This document shows positions 22,183-32,709 of a stretch of 64,000 bases of DNA, piece by piece. Location: assembly GCA_030263595.1 (NCBI GenBank), contig SZPG01000006.1, forward strand, positions 1 through 64,000, written 5' to 3'. The notes beneath the pieces are model-generated. The model saw only the letters and a list, made by a program, of their open reading frames with translations, was not told where the DNA came from and ran no database searches. Every line of letters starts with the position of its first letter. Position 1 is the first letter of the stretch. Origin of the DNA: Chloroflexi bacterium CFX6. GTDB lineage: Bacteria; Chloroflexota; Anaerolineae; Anaerolineales; Villigracilaceae. The translations under genes were made by a program, and so were the position numbers.

Positions 22183-22430
22183 GTTTGCGCTCCTTCGATA
22201 ATGTGCCTGCATGACGGGGAGAACGCAAAAAGGTATACCGAAAATACTTACAAATAGGTTGGGAAAATCTCCACTTAACGATCACCCCAAAACAATGAAA
22301 ATGCTACATAATTGGAAACGGGCTTCTGCTATCATGTACCTGATGGGAAATCCATTCCGTATGGGATTTTGGAGGAATAGCCGGCCGATCAAGTCGTAAA
22401 TCTGGAAAAATAATTTCCAAGCCGCCGCTA
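22183..22430. other. AT-rich intergenic region before the CRISPR-Cas locus
   Basis: About 250 bp, clearly richer in A+T than its surroundings. A 62-codon frame (22211-22399) has no ribosome site or family resemblance and I do not accept it. It probably contains the promoter of the HTH-cas operon, but no pair of good -35/-10 boxes stands out. Confidence 0.4.
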
Positions 22431-22459
22431 TCCTGAAAGTGATCAAACCACTTTCAGGA
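22431..22459 (+). promoter_or_regulatory. Perfect 11-bp inverted repeat overlapping a ribosome site (candidate operator or RNA hairpin)
   Basis: TCCTGAAAGTG (22431-22441) and CACTTTCAGGA (22449-22459) are exact inverts with a 7-nt spacer. The right arm runs into the AGGAGG ribosome site of the mini-HTH gene. It could be the DNA target of the HTH/WYL regulators encoded downstream, or an RNA hairpin that hides the ribosome site. There is no T-run, so it is not an ordinary terminator. Confidence 0.65.
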
Positions 22460-22467
22460 GGCGCGCA

Positions 22468-22668
22468 ATGGCTCGGTTGCAGAAAGGCGAACGTGAAGAG
22501 AAGGAAAGCGCTTTATACCGCCTGCTTCGGAGATTGCGATTCGGGGTTCGAGAGTCGGAGGTTTCCGAGGAATTGGGCTGGCACAGGCGCACGGTCAATA
22601 ATTACCTGCGGAAACTAAAGAAAGAAGAGAAGGCGGAACGGGAAGGTCGTTCGTGGTTTGCAAAATAG
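22468..22668 (+). CDS. Mini helix-turn-helix protein (66 aa), paralogue of the WYL-Cas3 N-terminus
   Basis: A DNA-binding domain only: LRFGVRESEVSEELGWHRRTVNNYLRKLKKEEKAEREGRSW. The same pattern begins the downstream Cas3 fusion (LTEAEIADEVNIQRRTVNNYLQELEYQGKAFKDGIYW), with RRTVNNYL identical. It has a good AGGAGG ribosome site and a perfect inverted repeat in front. It lacks the WYL domain, so it may be a truncated copy, an autorepressor, or an antagonist that competes for the same operator. It lies 107 bp before cas3, in the same direction. Confidence 0.7.
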   Translation: MARLQKGEREEKESALYRLLRRLRFGVRESEVSEELGWHRRTVNNYLRKLKKEEKAEREGRSWFAK

Positions 22669-22775
22669 CAGGGCAAATGCCTCTTCGTAATTTTCTAACT
22701 GGCGAATAGAATACGAAGCGCCGCAGATTCCACGTGAATTTCAAAAAGGCTGCGGTACAGTAAAGGAAACATCCC

Positions 22776-25700
22776 ATGCCGCGAATAAACGATGAAGACA
22801 AACGAGACAGGCTGGAGCGAATCCATCTCCTGTTGAAACGCAACCCGCGCGGACTCACCGAAGCCGAGATTGCGGACGAGGTGAATATCCAACGTCGCAC
22901 GGTCAATAACTACCTTCAGGAACTCGAATATCAGGGGAAAGCCTTCAAGGACGGCATCTACTGGTTCCCGCTGGCTCTCAAAGAGTCGCAACTGCGTTCG
23001 TTCGACCTTTCTCCCGAAGAAGCCGTCACCTTATATCTTGGCGCCCGTCTGCTCTCCAAGCAACAGGACAAGCGCAACGAACCCGCCGAGACCGCCCTGC
23101 TCAAACTGGCGAGCGTCTTGAAGGCAGATGCAGGTGTAGGCGCGGAGATCGAGCAAGCCGCGCGCGAACTGGCGGGTAGACCCATTCAAAAGGATTACCA
23201 GCCGATCTTCCGCGACGTAGTGCGGGGCTATATCTATCGCAAGAAGATCGAGATCGCCTACCGCCCGCTCAACTGGAACAAATCCTTTACGACCCTCTTC
23301 TCCACCTATCTTTTGGAGCCCTCCCCCATCGGCTTCACCACCTACCTGATCGGGCACAGTTCCATCGTGGACAAGTGGCGCGCCTATAAACTGGAGCGGA
23401 TCGAATCAGTCCGCCTGACGAAAGAGGAATACGCCCTGCCGCCCGATTTTCCAGGGCTTGAAATCCTGCGCAATGCGTGGAGCATCGTCATGGGCGAAGA
23501 GACCGTTCGAGTCGTCCTGCGGTTCAACGAGAAGGTAAAAGCCCGCGTACTCGAAACGCGCTGGCATCCCTCCCAGCAGACGCGTGATGACCCGGAGAAG
23601 CCAGGTTCCCTGTTATGGGAAGTGCAGGTGGCGGATACGCTCGATCTGCTCCCCTGGGTGCGCGGCTGGGGCGCGGATGTGGAGGTGTTGGAGCCAAATG
23701 AATTGCGCGAGGCGCTGGAGAGGGAGGTGAAGAGATTGGCGAGGGTGTATGGGGTGGGAAAAGTAGCTGCGCCGCAAACCCGTTTCTTTGCCCATCGGCG
23801 CGAAGGTGAAGACCGCGAAAACTGGCAACCACTTATCGAGCATTTGCAGAAAACGGCGGAAATGGCGCGTGATTTTGGCGCGGACGCCAACATAGCGGAC
23901 TTGGCGTATATCGCTGGTTTGATTCATGACTTGGGCAAGTACTCCGCTGAGTTTCAAAAGCGGCTGGAGGGTACTGGTCCGCGCGTGGACCATTCCACGG
24001 CTGGCGCAAAGGAACTCAAAGCATTGCTCAAAGGCATGCCGCAGGAGGTCTTTGCTCAACTTCTGGCATATCCCATTATGGGACATCACACAGGATTGCC
24101 CGATCACGGTAATGAGACCGACTTGGAAGGCGGAACGGTTTGCGCGCGACTGAAAAATAACGTTCCCAAGTACAGCGATTACAAGAGCGAATTGGATCTA
24201 TCCACGCTTCCGTTCCCGCAAAGTTTAAATATCCGCTGGGCGAAAGATAAACTTGGCTTCTCGCTTTCGTTCCTAACGCGTATGGTCTATTCCGCGCTGG
24301 TGGACGCTGACTTTCAGGAAACCGAAACCTACATGCAGCGCAGAGCAAAGCCGCGCGGCGGACACGAAGACATCCCTGCCCTGCGCGAGAAACTGGACGC
24401 GCACTTGAAGCAATTCGAGAATCCGACCAGCGACATCAACCGCAAGCGCAGTGAGACGCTCCAAGCCTGCATCGAAAAAGGCAAGAGGGAAAAGCCTGGT
24501 TTCTTCTCGCTCACCGTCCCGACCGGCGGCGGCAAGACGCTGGCTTCGATGGCGTTCGGTCTCCATCACGCCGCTGAGCATGGCTTGAAGCGCATTATCT
24601 ACGTCATCCCGTTCACCACCATCATAGAGCAGAACGCCAAAGTGTTCAAAAACATCTTCGGCGAAGAGCATGTATTAGAACATCACTCCAACTTCGATTG
24701 GGAGGGCAAGAAACGTGAAAACTCCGATGACCGCACGAACAGCGCGCTTGCCAAACTCAAACTGGCGGCGGAGAACTGGGATATTCCCATCGTGGTCACG
24801 ACCAACGTGCAGTTTTTCGAGTCGCTGTTTGCTAACAGGTCATCGCGCTGCCGCAAGCTTCACAACATCGCCAAAAGCGTAATTATCTTCGATGAGGCGC
24901 AAATGCTGCCGCGCGAGTACATGCGTCCCGCGATGGCAGCGGTATGGGAATTGGTAACCAATTACGGAGCAAGCGCGGTCTTTTGCACTGCCACGCAACC
25001 TGGGCTGGAACGCTTCCTGCCTGAAGAGACACGAGTTGAAGAACTTGCGCCCAATCCGCAGGAGTTGTTCGATTTCTACAAGCGCGTGGAGGTTAAGAAC
25101 TTGGGGACGTTGCCCGATGAAGACCTGCTCGCCCGCCTGAACGCGCACGATCAAGCCCTGTGCATTGTCAACACCCGCCGCCACGCCAGCGGACTTTTCA
25201 GCGGCTTGCAAGGCGATGGAAATTTCCACCTTTCAACTCTGATGTGTCCCGCGCACCGACGGGAAAAACTGGCAGAAATTGAGAAACGATTGAAGAGCAA
25301 ACAGCCCTGCCGCGTGGTTTCAACAACGGTGATGGAAGCGGGTATTGACCTGGACTTCCCCGTCGGCTATCGCGCGCTCACGGGATTGGATTCCATCAAT
25401 CAGGCTGCGGGACGCGTCAACCGCGAGATGAAGCGCAGTGTGAGCGCGATGTTCGTCTTCGAGCCGAAATCGGAGTTCATCAAGCGGACGCCGTCTTTCC
25501 TGAAACAGACAGCGGAAGTTGCCCGCATGGTCTTGCGCGACCACGCCGAAGCGCCGATTTCCATCCCCGCTATCCAGGCGTTTTTCGAGCGGTTGTATGA
25601 CCTGCAAGACCCGAACATCTCGTTTGATGTCAAGCGTATCATGGAATGTTTTGAGGACGAAAGATTCAAGTTCGAGACGGCGGCGCGCGCCTTCCAAATC

Positions 25701-25988
25701 ATCGAAGACCCGACCGAAACAGTGATTATCCCTTACGACGAGGAGGCGAAAGAACTTATCGAAAAATTGAAAGACACTTTATATCCATCCAAAATCCTGC
25801 GGAAACTTCAGCCCTACACGGTTTCGATTTTTGAGGGCGAGTTTGATAAACTCAGTTCAAAAGGAGTAATTTTGACCATTGACGATACTTATCAGGTTCT
25901 CAATCCCGATTACATGCAAGAGTATTATGACTCTGAAAGGGGTCTGCTCGTTCCCGAAAGCGGCGGAGGGGATGGGTTGTTTTTCTAA
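22776..25988 (+). CDS. cas3: Cas3 nuclease-helicase of type I-C fused to an N-terminal HTH-WYL regulator
   Basis: A single frame of 1070 residues. Residues 15-65 form a winged HTH (RRTVNNYL at 41-48) and about 75-325 a WYL-type regulator (region KIEIAYRPLNW at 157-167, the C-terminal extension to RLARVYGVG at about 328). From about 340 follows the full Cas3: HD nuclease with H355 and HD in LIHDLGKYS (384-385), Walker A TGGGKT (583-588), DEAQ box (706-709), TAT (738-740), EAGIDLD (854-860) and QAAGRVNR (876-883). Cas3 nicks and degrades target DNA recruited by Cascade. WYL domains are known to sense ligands or nucleic acid and often regulate CRISPR and other defence loci; here the regulator is covalently joined to the effector. 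Joining by a sequencing frameshift is unlikely, as no stop or frame change is needed. First large gene of the cas operon. Confidence 0.93.
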   Translation: MPRINDEDKRDRLERIHLLLKRNPRGLTEAEIADEVNIQRRTVNNYLQELEYQGKAFKDGIYWFPLALKESQLRSFDLSPEEAVTLYLGARLLSKQQDKRNEPAETALLKLASVLKADAGVGAEIEQAARELAGRPIQKDYQPIFRDVVRGYIYRKKIEIAYRPLNWNKSFTTLFSTYLLEPSPIGFTTYLIGHSSIVDKWRAYKLERIESVRLTKEEYALPPDFPGLEILRNAWSIVMGEETVRVVLRFNEKVKARVLETRWHPSQQTRDDPEKPGSLLWEVQVADTLDLLPWVRGWGADVEVLEPNELREALEREVKRLARVYGVGKVAAPQTRFFAHRREGEDRENWQPLIEHLQKTAEMARDFGADANIADLAYIAGLIHDLGKYSAEFQKRLEGTGPRVDHSTAGAKELKALLKGMPQEVFAQLLAYPIMGHHTGLPDHGNETDLEGGTVCARLKNNVPKYSDYKSELDLSTLPFPQSLNIRWAKDKLGFSLSFLTRMVYSALVDADFQETETYMQRRAKPRGGHEDIPALREKLDAHLKQFENPTSDINRKRSETLQACIEKGKREKPGFFSLTVPTGGGKTLASMAFGLHHAAEHGLKRIIYVIPFTTIIEQNAKVFKNIFGEEHVLEHHSNFDWEGKKRENSDDRTNSALAKLKLAAENWDIPIVVTTNVQFFESLFANRSSRCRKLHNIAKSVIIFDEAQMLPREYMRPAMAAVWELVTNYGASAVFCTATQPGLERFLPEETRVEELAPNPQELFDFYKRVEVKNLGTLPDEDLLARLNAHDQALCIVNTRRHASGLFSGLQGDGNFHLSTLMCPAHRREKLAEIEKRLKSKQPCRVVSTTVMEAGIDLDFPVGYRALTGLDSINQAAGRVNREMKRSVSAMFVFEPKSEFIKRTPSFLKQTAEVARMVLRDHAEAPISIPAIQAFFERLYDLQDPNISFDVKRIMECFEDERFKFETAARAFQIIEDPTETVIIPYDEEAKELIEKLKDTLYPSKILRKLQPYTVSIFEGEFDKLSSKGVILTIDDTYQVLNPDYMQEYYDSERGLLVPESGGGDGLFF

Positions 25989-25997
25989 ATTGCAAAT

Positions 25998-26077
25998 GTC
26001 ATTGCGAGGGCGGCGTTCTTCCGCCCGAAGCAATCTCCACTTTGGCGAGGGGACTGCTTCGCTTCGCTCGCAGTGAC
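25998..26077. repeat. Palindromic element (GTCATTGCGAG family) between cas3 and cas5
   Basis: GTCATTGCGAG opens the element and CTCGCAGTGAC closes it, with GAAGCAATC and GACTGCTTC inside. It starts 9 bp after the cas3 stop and ends just before the AGGAGG ribosome site of cas5. Confidence 0.85.
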
Positions 26078-26104
26078 ACGAAAAACTGAAAGGAGGTTCG
26101 ACAC

Positions 26105-28716: not shown

Positions 28717-28717
28717 T

Positions 28718-28849
28718 GTCGTTGCGAGGGTTGATAGTCGAGTAGCGTTCGTTGCGTATCGAGACCACAGCCCGAAGCAATCCCCTGCTTGGCAAGGAGA
28801 CTGCTTCGCTTGCTCCTTCGCTACCGCTCAGGACAAGGCTCGCAGTGAC
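28718..28849. repeat. Palindromic element (GTCATTGCGAG family) with inner insertion, between cas8c and cas7
   Basis: GTCGTTGCGAG at the left and CTCGCAGTGAC at the right end with GAAGCAATCC/GACTGCTTCG inside. Extra sequence on both sides of the core makes it longer (132 bp) than its relatives, suggesting repeat-in-repeat insertion. It begins 1 bp after the cas8c stop. Confidence 0.8.
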
Positions 28850-28906
28850 ATGACCAATCATAAATCTTCAATCGAAAATCCAAAATCACAAAGGAGACTG
28901 TAAACC

Positions 28907-29961: not shown

Positions 29962-30351
29962 TTAATACGGTCTTTCCACCTTCACTTCTGGTAAAGGATG
30001 AAAATGCTTATCGTTCAATGTGCAAATCGTGAGACCGTAGTGGTGAGCGCTTGCCCCGATCAGGCAATCGAGAAAACCGATGCCGTGACTCAGATGAAAC
30101 TGACGATACCAATCCAACGCCGTCTGCGAGATCGCGCCCGATATGTGAACCACCGGGTAAAGCATCAACTCTTTTTCCACGATACCTTGCTCACGACGAT
30201 TGCGACAGCCTGCAAGCAGTTCAGCGGCGGTTACCACGGAATACGCCAGTTCGCCTGTGGAGAAACCACCGATCCACGCTTTGGCAGTTTCGCTGCCGCG
30301 CAGGAAGTCAATGAAAATGGAGGTGTCCAGCAGGCGCGCCGCATCAGCCAT
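29962..30351 (-). CDS. PIN-domain ribonuclease toxin (VapC-like)
   Basis: A 129-residue PIN domain. Acidic active-site residues are seen in LLDTSIFIDFL (D9), VVTAAELL (E), GFLDCLIGASA (D) and the TLNDKHF tail. VapC toxins cut tRNA or rRNA and are held by a partner antitoxin. The gene is encoded opposite to the cas genes, between cas7 and cas4, and overlaps its putative antitoxin gene by 8 bp. A standard chromosomal TA pair that entered the cas operon is the simplest view; a role in retaining the CRISPR locus is possible but not shown. Confidence 0.88.
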   Translation of the reverse strand: MADAARLLDTSIFIDFLRGSETAKAWIGGFSTGELAYSVVTAAELLAGCRNRREQGIVEKELMLYPVVHISGAISQTALDWYRQFHLSHGIGFLDCLIGASAHHYGLTICTLNDKHFHPLPEVKVERPY

Positions 30352-30586
30352 CTTGCCGCCGCTCCATGTCCTGGCGAAGTTTCAAGGCAAAGGCGGCGGG
30401 ATCGCTCGCTTCAGGATAATCCGCCCAAATGCCAAATGCGGCATGTTCGCCGGAAGTGGAGGGGCGAAGCGTTTGCCCTCGAAATTGAAGAAATTCGATG
30501 AATTGGGCAACCTCCACCAACGCATCTTTGGAGAGCGTATCCAACTGGCGAAAAATGAACTCTTTTGTTACTTGTTGAGATACCAT
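30344..30586 (-). CDS. Putative antitoxin partner of VapC (DUF2281-like)
   Basis: An 80-residue protein starting MVSQQVTKEFIFRQLDTLS, with LVEVAQFIEFLQFRG, a segment typical of small DUF2281-type antitoxins. The C-terminal half (FGIWADYPEASDPAAFALKLRQDMERR) would be the part that wraps the PIN toxin. It precedes and overlaps the toxin gene, the normal order for VapBC pairs. An obvious DNA-binding fold is not visible. Confidence 0.75.
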   Translation of the reverse strand: MVSQQVTKEFIFRQLDTLSKDALVEVAQFIEFLQFRGQTLRPSTSGEHAAFGIWADYPEASDPAAFALKLRQDMERRQDG

Positions 30587-30621
30587 GTCTACCTCTAATA
30601 GGATTTTAGCACATTATGACG

Positions 30622-30724
30622 ATGTCATTGCGAGCGCACGCTGCGAAGCAATCTCCTGTTGATGGAGCGTCTCTCATGCGTGAGGAGATTGCTTCGACGG
30701 ACGAACGCCGTCTCGCAATGACAT
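30622..30724. repeat. Palindromic element (GTCATTGCGAG family) between the TA pair and cas4
   Basis: ATGTCATTGCGAG (30622-30634) and CTCGCAATGACAT (30712-30724) are exact 13-bp inverts. GAAGCAATCTCC and GGAGATTGCTTC pair inside. It ends 9 bp before the cas4 start, so cas4 lacks its own ribosome site. Confidence 0.88.
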
Positions 30725-30733
30725 GAGCGAACC

Positions 30734-31456: not shown

Positions 31457-31544
31457 CAGGTTTTATTATGGCGCACGTTAATCGGACTTCTCCGAATGGT
31501 TCGATACTCAATCAATCACGGCTCTGCGAAAACCTGTCAGGTCT
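31449..31544. mobile_element. MITE-like palindromic element, left of cas1
   Basis: Perfect 16-bp terminal inverted repeats AGACCTGACAGGTTTT (31449-31464) and AAAACCTGTCAGGTCT (31529-31544), 96 bp in all. The left arm contains the cas4 stop codon; the right arm ends 12 bp before the cas1 ATG, which therefore has no Shine-Dalgarno sequence. A second copy follows cas1. Confidence 0.82.
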
Positions 31545-31556
31545 TTATACACTATT

Positions 31557-32588: not shown

Positions 32589-32595
32589 TCGTGAG

Positions 32596-32692
32596 AGACC
32601 TGACGGGTTTTCGCGGAGGTTCGCTCAACCGGGCAGATCGCCGTTCGGAGAATCCAGGATCATCACGCGTCACAACGAAACCCGTCAGGTCT
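32596..32692. mobile_element. MITE-like palindromic element, right of cas1
   Basis: AGACCTGACGGGTTT (from 32596) and AAACCCGTCAGGTCT (to 32692) form the ends of a 97-bp element, almost the same size as the copy left of cas1. The arms differ from the left copy by a compensated A/G change. The interior is unrelated in detail, as expected for a structure-conserved element. Confidence 0.82.
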
Positions 32693-32709
32693 TAAGAAAG
32701 GAAGTTTGT

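Follow-up and report, generated by a model that had tools for sequence, protein, structure and literature searches.

The window, i.e., the whole 64-kb stretch of DNA analyzed here, contains a type I-C CRISPR locus in which a gene for an HTH-WYL-WCX-Cas3 fusion is preceded by a small gene for a wHTH protein (mini-wHTH, or mini). The features of this region, in their order along the DNA, are as follows:

22402..22420, plus strand: box1, a conserved palindrome, (C/T)TGGAA-AAATAAT-TTCCAA, of the type TTGGAA-N7-TTCCAA, with its centre at the -35 position
22429..22434, plus strand: predicted -10, TATCCT, 8 bp after box1; its last four bases start the 5' arm
22431..22441, plus strand: hairpin 5' arm, TCCTGAAAGTG, spanning the -10 to the predicted start (about 22441)
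22442..22448, plus strand: hairpin loop, ATCAAAC, 7 nt
22449..22459, plus strand: hairpin 3' arm, CACTTTCAGGA, including the first four Shine-Dalgarno (SD) bases
22456..22461, plus strand: SD, AGGAGG, of the mini-wHTH gene
22468..22668, plus strand: mini-wHTH gene, 66 aa, with the conserved RRTxNNYLR
22688..22712, plus strand: box2 and -10, TAATTTTCTAA-N8-TAGAAT, the predicted fusion promoter, with the right half-site alone and no hairpin
22776..25988, plus strand: HTH-WYL-WCX-Cas3 (HD and helicase) fusion, 1070 aa, type I-C

The genes downstream of the fusion are those of a type I-C system (cas5c, cas8c, cas7c, cas4, cas1, and cas2), followed by an array with the repeat GTCGCTCCCTTCATTGGGAGCGTGGATTGAAAC. 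A 167-aa ORF between cas7c and cas4 (29998-30501) has no Pfam or NCBIfam match. Three gaps between cas genes (25989-26104, 28717-28906, and 30502-30733) contain related palindromes, CATTGCGAG...GAAGCAATC, that are REP- or MITE-like, while the cas4-cas1 (31457-31556) and cas1-cas2 (32589-32709) gaps share ACCTG(T/A)C(A/G)GG...TTTTCGC, possibly another small repeat. Among solved structures, those nearest to the WYL/WCX part of the fusion were the WYL proteins 7u02, 7tzv, and 9pfq and the DeoR-family regulator 8tp8; its similarity to PafBC was weak. The mini ORF resembles wHTH families and aligns with the N-terminus of the fusion at 35% identity over 65 residues (E = 1e-10), and this alignment includes the RRTVNNYL that the initial annotation of the region had described as common to both proteins. 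A structure model of the mini protein (helices at residues 3-23, 29-36, and 40-64; mean pLDDT 74) supports a three-helix HTH and nothing more. RRTxNNYLR and W63 were invariant in the 18 minis first aligned; the divergent mini of G959 has RRVVNNYLR instead. In a tree of HTH domains, which we trust for the broad split alone because it is based on few columns, 21 of 22 minis clustered apart from the HTHs of WYL proteins. This separation indicates that the mini-wHTH is a long-standing paralogue of the wHTH within the fusion, kept beside its partner, and no recent fragment of it.

The initial annotation had also pointed to a perfect 11-bp inverted repeat overlapping the ribosome site of the mini gene. 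TCCTGAAAGTG-ATCAAAC-CACTTTCAGGA is indeed exact (22431-22441/22449-22459), and since the SD occupies 22456-22461, its first four bases fall inside the 3' arm. Allowing up to three mismatches, the repeat occurs a single time in the 4.07-Mb genome. Perfect 11-bp inverted repeats with a short loop were found four times in the window outside the CRISPR array, compared with ~0.14 expected from base composition; with four of them present, the repeat by itself would be weak evidence. A covariance-model search of Rfam returned one chance miRNA match on the minus strand (E = 0.079; 21 bits, gathering score 86). We also considered a stem common to the hairpin and the CRISPR repeat (GTCGCTCCC...GTGGATTGAAAC) and saw no stem sequence shared by the two.

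Stronger evidence comes from conservation. Our sample consisted of 23 genomes or contigs of Chloroflexota relatives, mostly metagenome assemblies, with a mini-wHTH gene immediately before an HTH-WYL gene; they were gathered by searches for the mini protein and for the fusion. Where the contig could be read, the HTH-WYL gene that follows the mini usually proved to be the WYL-Cas3 fusion (in G130 it is an open frame of 352 aa). A stem-loop is present at the equivalent position in 22 of these 23 orthologous loci, even as its arm sequences change; this supports a conserved regulatory role of the element for the mini-wHTH gene. The exception, G959 (L155), is also the sole mini locus without box1; its hairpin is weak only, and a different dyad, TTCTAAGTTAGAA, lies upstream. 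A scan of the phylum with a mini profile gave no clear additional mini genes, and in the stretch read upstream of 18 more distant WYL-Cas3 fusions (~35% identical) there was no mini, box1, or comparable SD hairpin; the device thus belongs to the mini lineage. A separate lineage of WYL-Cas3 genes, represented by the regions L006, L009, L013, L016, and L043 upstream of distant fusions, has a conserved promoter box of its own, TGTTGC(A/G)GAATTC, followed 15 bp on by TATGCT, TATTCT, or TATCCT, and no mini gene or SD hairpin was seen there.

Across the 22 hairpin loci, folding energies ranged from -13 to -29 kcal/mol and the SD lay in or adjoined the 3' arm at each locus, whatever the arm sequence. 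In the predicted folds, 4-6 of the 6 bases of the SD window were paired at 21 of 22 loci; at the remaining one (L040), where the SD sits 2 bases further upstream, 2 of 6 were paired. The arms themselves differ strongly, e.g., CCTCCAGATAT...ACATCTGGAGG in G222 vs. CTCTGTGAAG...CTTCACGGAG in G300, with further divergent arms, CTCTCAAGAT...ATCTTGGGAG and CCTTGAAAT...ATTTCAAGG, in L059 and G835. We performed a permutation test in which each 5' segment was paired with the 3' segments of other loci, retaining the common -10 and SD motifs; the segments were placed by the -10 spacing rule, which does not choose the pairing. Since the loci are related and represent fewer than 22 independent events, the test was performed on 14 clade representatives. 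Cognate arms paired at -21.9 kcal/mol vs. -14.0 (sd 1.0) for permuted arms, and none of 100,000 permutations was as low; the outcome was the same for the first 11. Compared with dinucleotide-shuffled 5' segments, the mini promoters had a mean z of -4.1 (negative in 22 of 22) and 10 mini-less box promoters one of -1.1; the promoters of the fusion itself averaged -0.06. These last were represented by 21 sites that had been scanned as box2, including the mini promoter of G810, whose sequence matches the box2 pattern as well. The hairpin is therefore specific to mini promoters. Four distinct loci found after the hypothesis had been formed (G875, G835, G798, and G810) all carry the stem; in the first three the locus's own 3' arm ranked first of 22, while G810 was a weak fit (z = -1.8, own arm seventh of 22).

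Pair types at single positions include G-C, C-G, A-T, T-A, and G-U, at least one G-U pair occurs in 19 of 22 folds, loops vary from 4 to 11 nt, and bulges are present. Although shuffles and permutation alone cannot separate an RNA stem from a DNA dyad, these G-U pairs, bulges, and variable loops, together with the unconserved arms, indicate RNA pairing, which tolerates such features where a dimer site does not. RNAalifold found no consensus structure in a MAFFT alignment, as the arms shift by one base and the loops differ from locus to locus; folding of each sequence and arm permutation were used for this reason. By its pattern of change, then, the repeat appears to be a fast-evolving yet always-paired RNA stem-loop that would hide the ribosome site. 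The compensating changes that the initial annotation had proposed looking for in relatives are present, as pairing is kept while arm sequences vary, and they back its second option, control by RNA folding over the SD.

These results bear equally on its main proposal, that the 11-bp repeat is a DNA operator for the mini-wHTH and/or HTH-WYL-Cas3. Such a site would have parallels: the repeats recognized by BrxR, downstream of its promoter, are 11 bp long and have a 5-bp spacer (PMC9122601), and the sites of CapW extend over the -10 (PMC9122588). The repeat in the window likewise overlaps the predicted -10. However, the arms differ among loci whose recognition helices (RRTxNNYLR) are nearly invariant, the spacing, bulges, and G-U pairs are as described above, the repeat is missing from the fusion's own promoter, and the dyad that is conserved in sequence is box1. 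Since the arm sequences change while pairing is kept, we rejected the repeat as a shared operator, and consider this reading very improbable.

Box1 ends 10 bp upstream of the 11-bp repeat and is the sole such palindrome in the window and in the genome. Its core positions carry 2.0 bits of information (13-14 clade representatives), compared with 0.5-1.06 bits for the arm positions p10+6 to p10+12, where p10 is the first base of the -10. The right half of box1 recurs before the fusion gene (22693), and TTCYAA-N8-TAnnnT occurs in the 64 kb at two sites alone, one ahead of the mini and the other ahead of the fusion. In each of the 22 mini loci with the box, TAnnnT follows TTCCAA at exactly 8 bp. 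Mini-less WYL genes have TTGGAA-N7-TTCCAA and then, again at exactly 8 bp, a near-consensus -10 (such as TATACT, TAGAAT, TAGACT, or TATAGT), whereas the -10s of mini loci (TATCCT, TACTCT, and TACCCT) match TATAAT weakly. No conserved -35 hexamer was found across the loci, the centre of the box occupying its place. The full box1-N8-TAnnnT pattern was found in 12 of 396 genomes of the class, at one site each (reversed control, 0). Mini or WYL genes account for ten of the 12 sites; the remaining two (G332 and G142) precede a cas8a-like gene (PADLOC E = 5e-44 for the G332 copy, which was the one tested) 3-4 kb from the WYL gene on the same contig, suggesting a small regulon. L121 and L122 are the second box1 sites of G332 and G142, and in L121 the cas8a-like gene follows a Cas3-HD ORF.

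Box1 is a candidate binding site of WYL-Cas3 and/or the mini-wHTH. It, and not the 11-bp repeat, is the dyad that is conserved in promoters of the WYL gene and its defense operon. The earlier idea of two HTHs at one palindrome holds insofar as paralogous wHTHs share a DNA motif within the locus, but that motif is box1/box2 and not the repeat. A full palindrome precedes the mini and a half-site precedes the fusion, while mini-less WYL genes keep the full palindrome; this distribution would fit a mini that has taken over the palindrome, as competitor or dimer partner. The suggestion that the mini protein antagonizes the fusion accordingly survives, as a possibility, at box1/box2 instead of at the 11-bp repeat. 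In one mini-less WYL gene (L077), an upstream hairpin, CTGAAATTAGA/TCTAATTTTAG, begins at the -10 and extends over the putative SD of a 9-codon ORF. The stop codon of this ORF overlaps the start of the WYL gene, and the ORF may be what is left of the mini gene or a replacement for it.

The N8 spacing and its conservation place the -10 at TATCCT (22429-22434), from which a start is expected near 22441, where the 5' arm has its final base. The 5' arm would therefore end where the transcript should begin. Pairing on the 5' side was seen in 19-22 of the 22 loci from p10+2 to p10+11 and then fell to 16, 12, 6, and 3 loci at p10+12, +13, +14, and +15. With the -10 inside the 5' arm, and with the arm extending no further than the predicted start, transcripts from the mini gene's own promoter would lack the arm. 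Over the 22 loci, the mean predicted probability that the SD is unpaired was 0.20 when the 5' arm was present; it rose to 0.36 when the arm was shuffled and to 0.47 when it was removed, the last value being only a moderate exposure for the short transcript. In G300 and G130 the stem runs past the predicted start site, and removing the arm does not expose the SD any further in G130.

We propose that two separate elements, the box1 DNA site and an RNA stem-loop, are stacked within ~70 bp. Box1, centred near -35 and a fixed 8 bp before a weak -10, would be the regulator's site, with the box2 half-site playing the same part for the WYL-Cas3 gene; a WYL protein with this promoter geometry could be activating like DriD or repressing like BrxR. 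The hairpin's 3' strand coincides with the SD region of the mini-wHTH gene, and the 5' strand with the predicted -10 to +1 stretch of the promoter. RNA arriving from upstream would carry both strands, fold, and hide the SD, while RNA from the gene's own promoter, lacking the 5' strand, would be translated. With read-through RNA blocked in this way, the mini-wHTH would be made solely when the box1 promoter fires. We assign a probability of roughly 0.6 to this reading, in which the hairpin silences the mini gene in read-through RNA alone and a DriD- or BrxR-like WYL protein acts on box1.

The hairpin could instead be part of the gene's normal mRNA, with a start at or before box1 and a structure that damps mini-wHTH translation or switches it through a protein, temperature, or another RNA. 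Covariation needs merely both arms in one RNA, the outer stem often extends past the -10 and to the AUG, the -10 is weak in mini loci, and box1 contains an AATAAT-like sequence, all of which this alternative would accommodate. However, TAnnnT is invariant in the 22 loci although its A2 is unpaired in 13 of 22 folds, no conserved candidate -35 for an earlier start was found upstream of box1, mini-less promoters retain a good -10 at N8 while the box centre diverges, and the 5' arm stops at the start predicted from TAnnnT. We therefore regard a hairpin in the normal mRNA as rather unlikely. It is far less probable still that the stem serves mainly in 5'-end protection or RNA stability, as a structure at the 5' end of any longer leader might, and overlaps the SD incidentally, since the 3' arm contains or adjoins the SD at every hairpin locus regardless of arm sequence.

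Silencing of read-through RNA by such a layout has precedents. In T4 gene e, longer transcripts hide the SD and late promoters in the 5' strand give transcripts that do not (PMC3014915), and I-TevI has a leader hairpin of the gene e layout plus a protein operator over the promoter (PMC2988022). By analogy, the proposed arrangement resembles that of gene e (lysozyme), soc, and I-TevI, with the SD hidden in the long RNA and the promoter in the 5' strand; however, the T4 systems use phage late promoters, whereas the gene here is a chromosomal CRISPR regulator with a -10 of ordinary bacterial type. In IS10/Tn10 and IS200, secondary structure keeps read-through RNA untranslated, as we propose here, although the gene concerned is that of a transposase and not a regulator. 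Studies by Davis in 1985 and Beuzon in 1999, both cited in PMC2965389, reportedly deal with the protection of IS10/Tn10 and IS200 against external promoters. The end of the arm at the predicted start, the SD exposure values, and the gene e/I-TevI layout together favor insulation from read-through over both a hairpin in the normal mRNA and an operator.

The proposed DNA site likewise has counterparts. In DriD, a wHTH-WYL activator of Caulobacter, the half-sites and the DNA-binding domains flank a poor -35, and their distance from the -10 is fixed (PMC12340889). Box1 is similarly a pseudo-palindrome around -35 at constant distance from the -10, and the fusion's WYL/WCX part is similar to WYL regulators; unlike DriD, the protein here is fused to Cas3. 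PafBC uses a -26 motif (PMC11804915). BrxR and CapW are wHTH-WYL-WCX proteins beside a defense operon with a promoter palindrome, as here (PMC9122601, PMC9122589, PMC9122588); unlike those repressors, this locus has TTGGAA/TTCCAA half-sites, an extra mini-wHTH, and the Cas3 fusion. Fusions of WYL to Cas3 have been described before in type I systems (Makarova 2014, PMC4012209), in passages that say nothing of the mini-wHTH, box1/box2, or hairpin.

The locus may be a self-contained CRISPR switch in which the Cas3 effector is itself a transcription factor (wHTH-WYL). The WYL domains of PafBC and DriD sense single-stranded DNA, and if that of the fusion does so as well, Cas3 interference could switch the fusion's own and the mini promoters via box1/box2, with the insulated mini-wHTH, made only then, acting as antagonist or heterodimer partner; we offer this circuit tentatively and think it unlikely. 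For WYL-Cas3 CRISPR systems, whose regulation was not described in the literature that we found, the insulation model supplies a defined circuit open to experimental test. Box1/box2 provides a high-specificity DNA motif for the regulator, and the mini-wHTH is a conserved micro-gene of a kind usually too small for naming. RNA insulation, as known in phage T4 and in insertion sequences, now probably has an example before a CRISPR regulator, and shielding of this kind would suit a locus that is carried from one genomic context to another.
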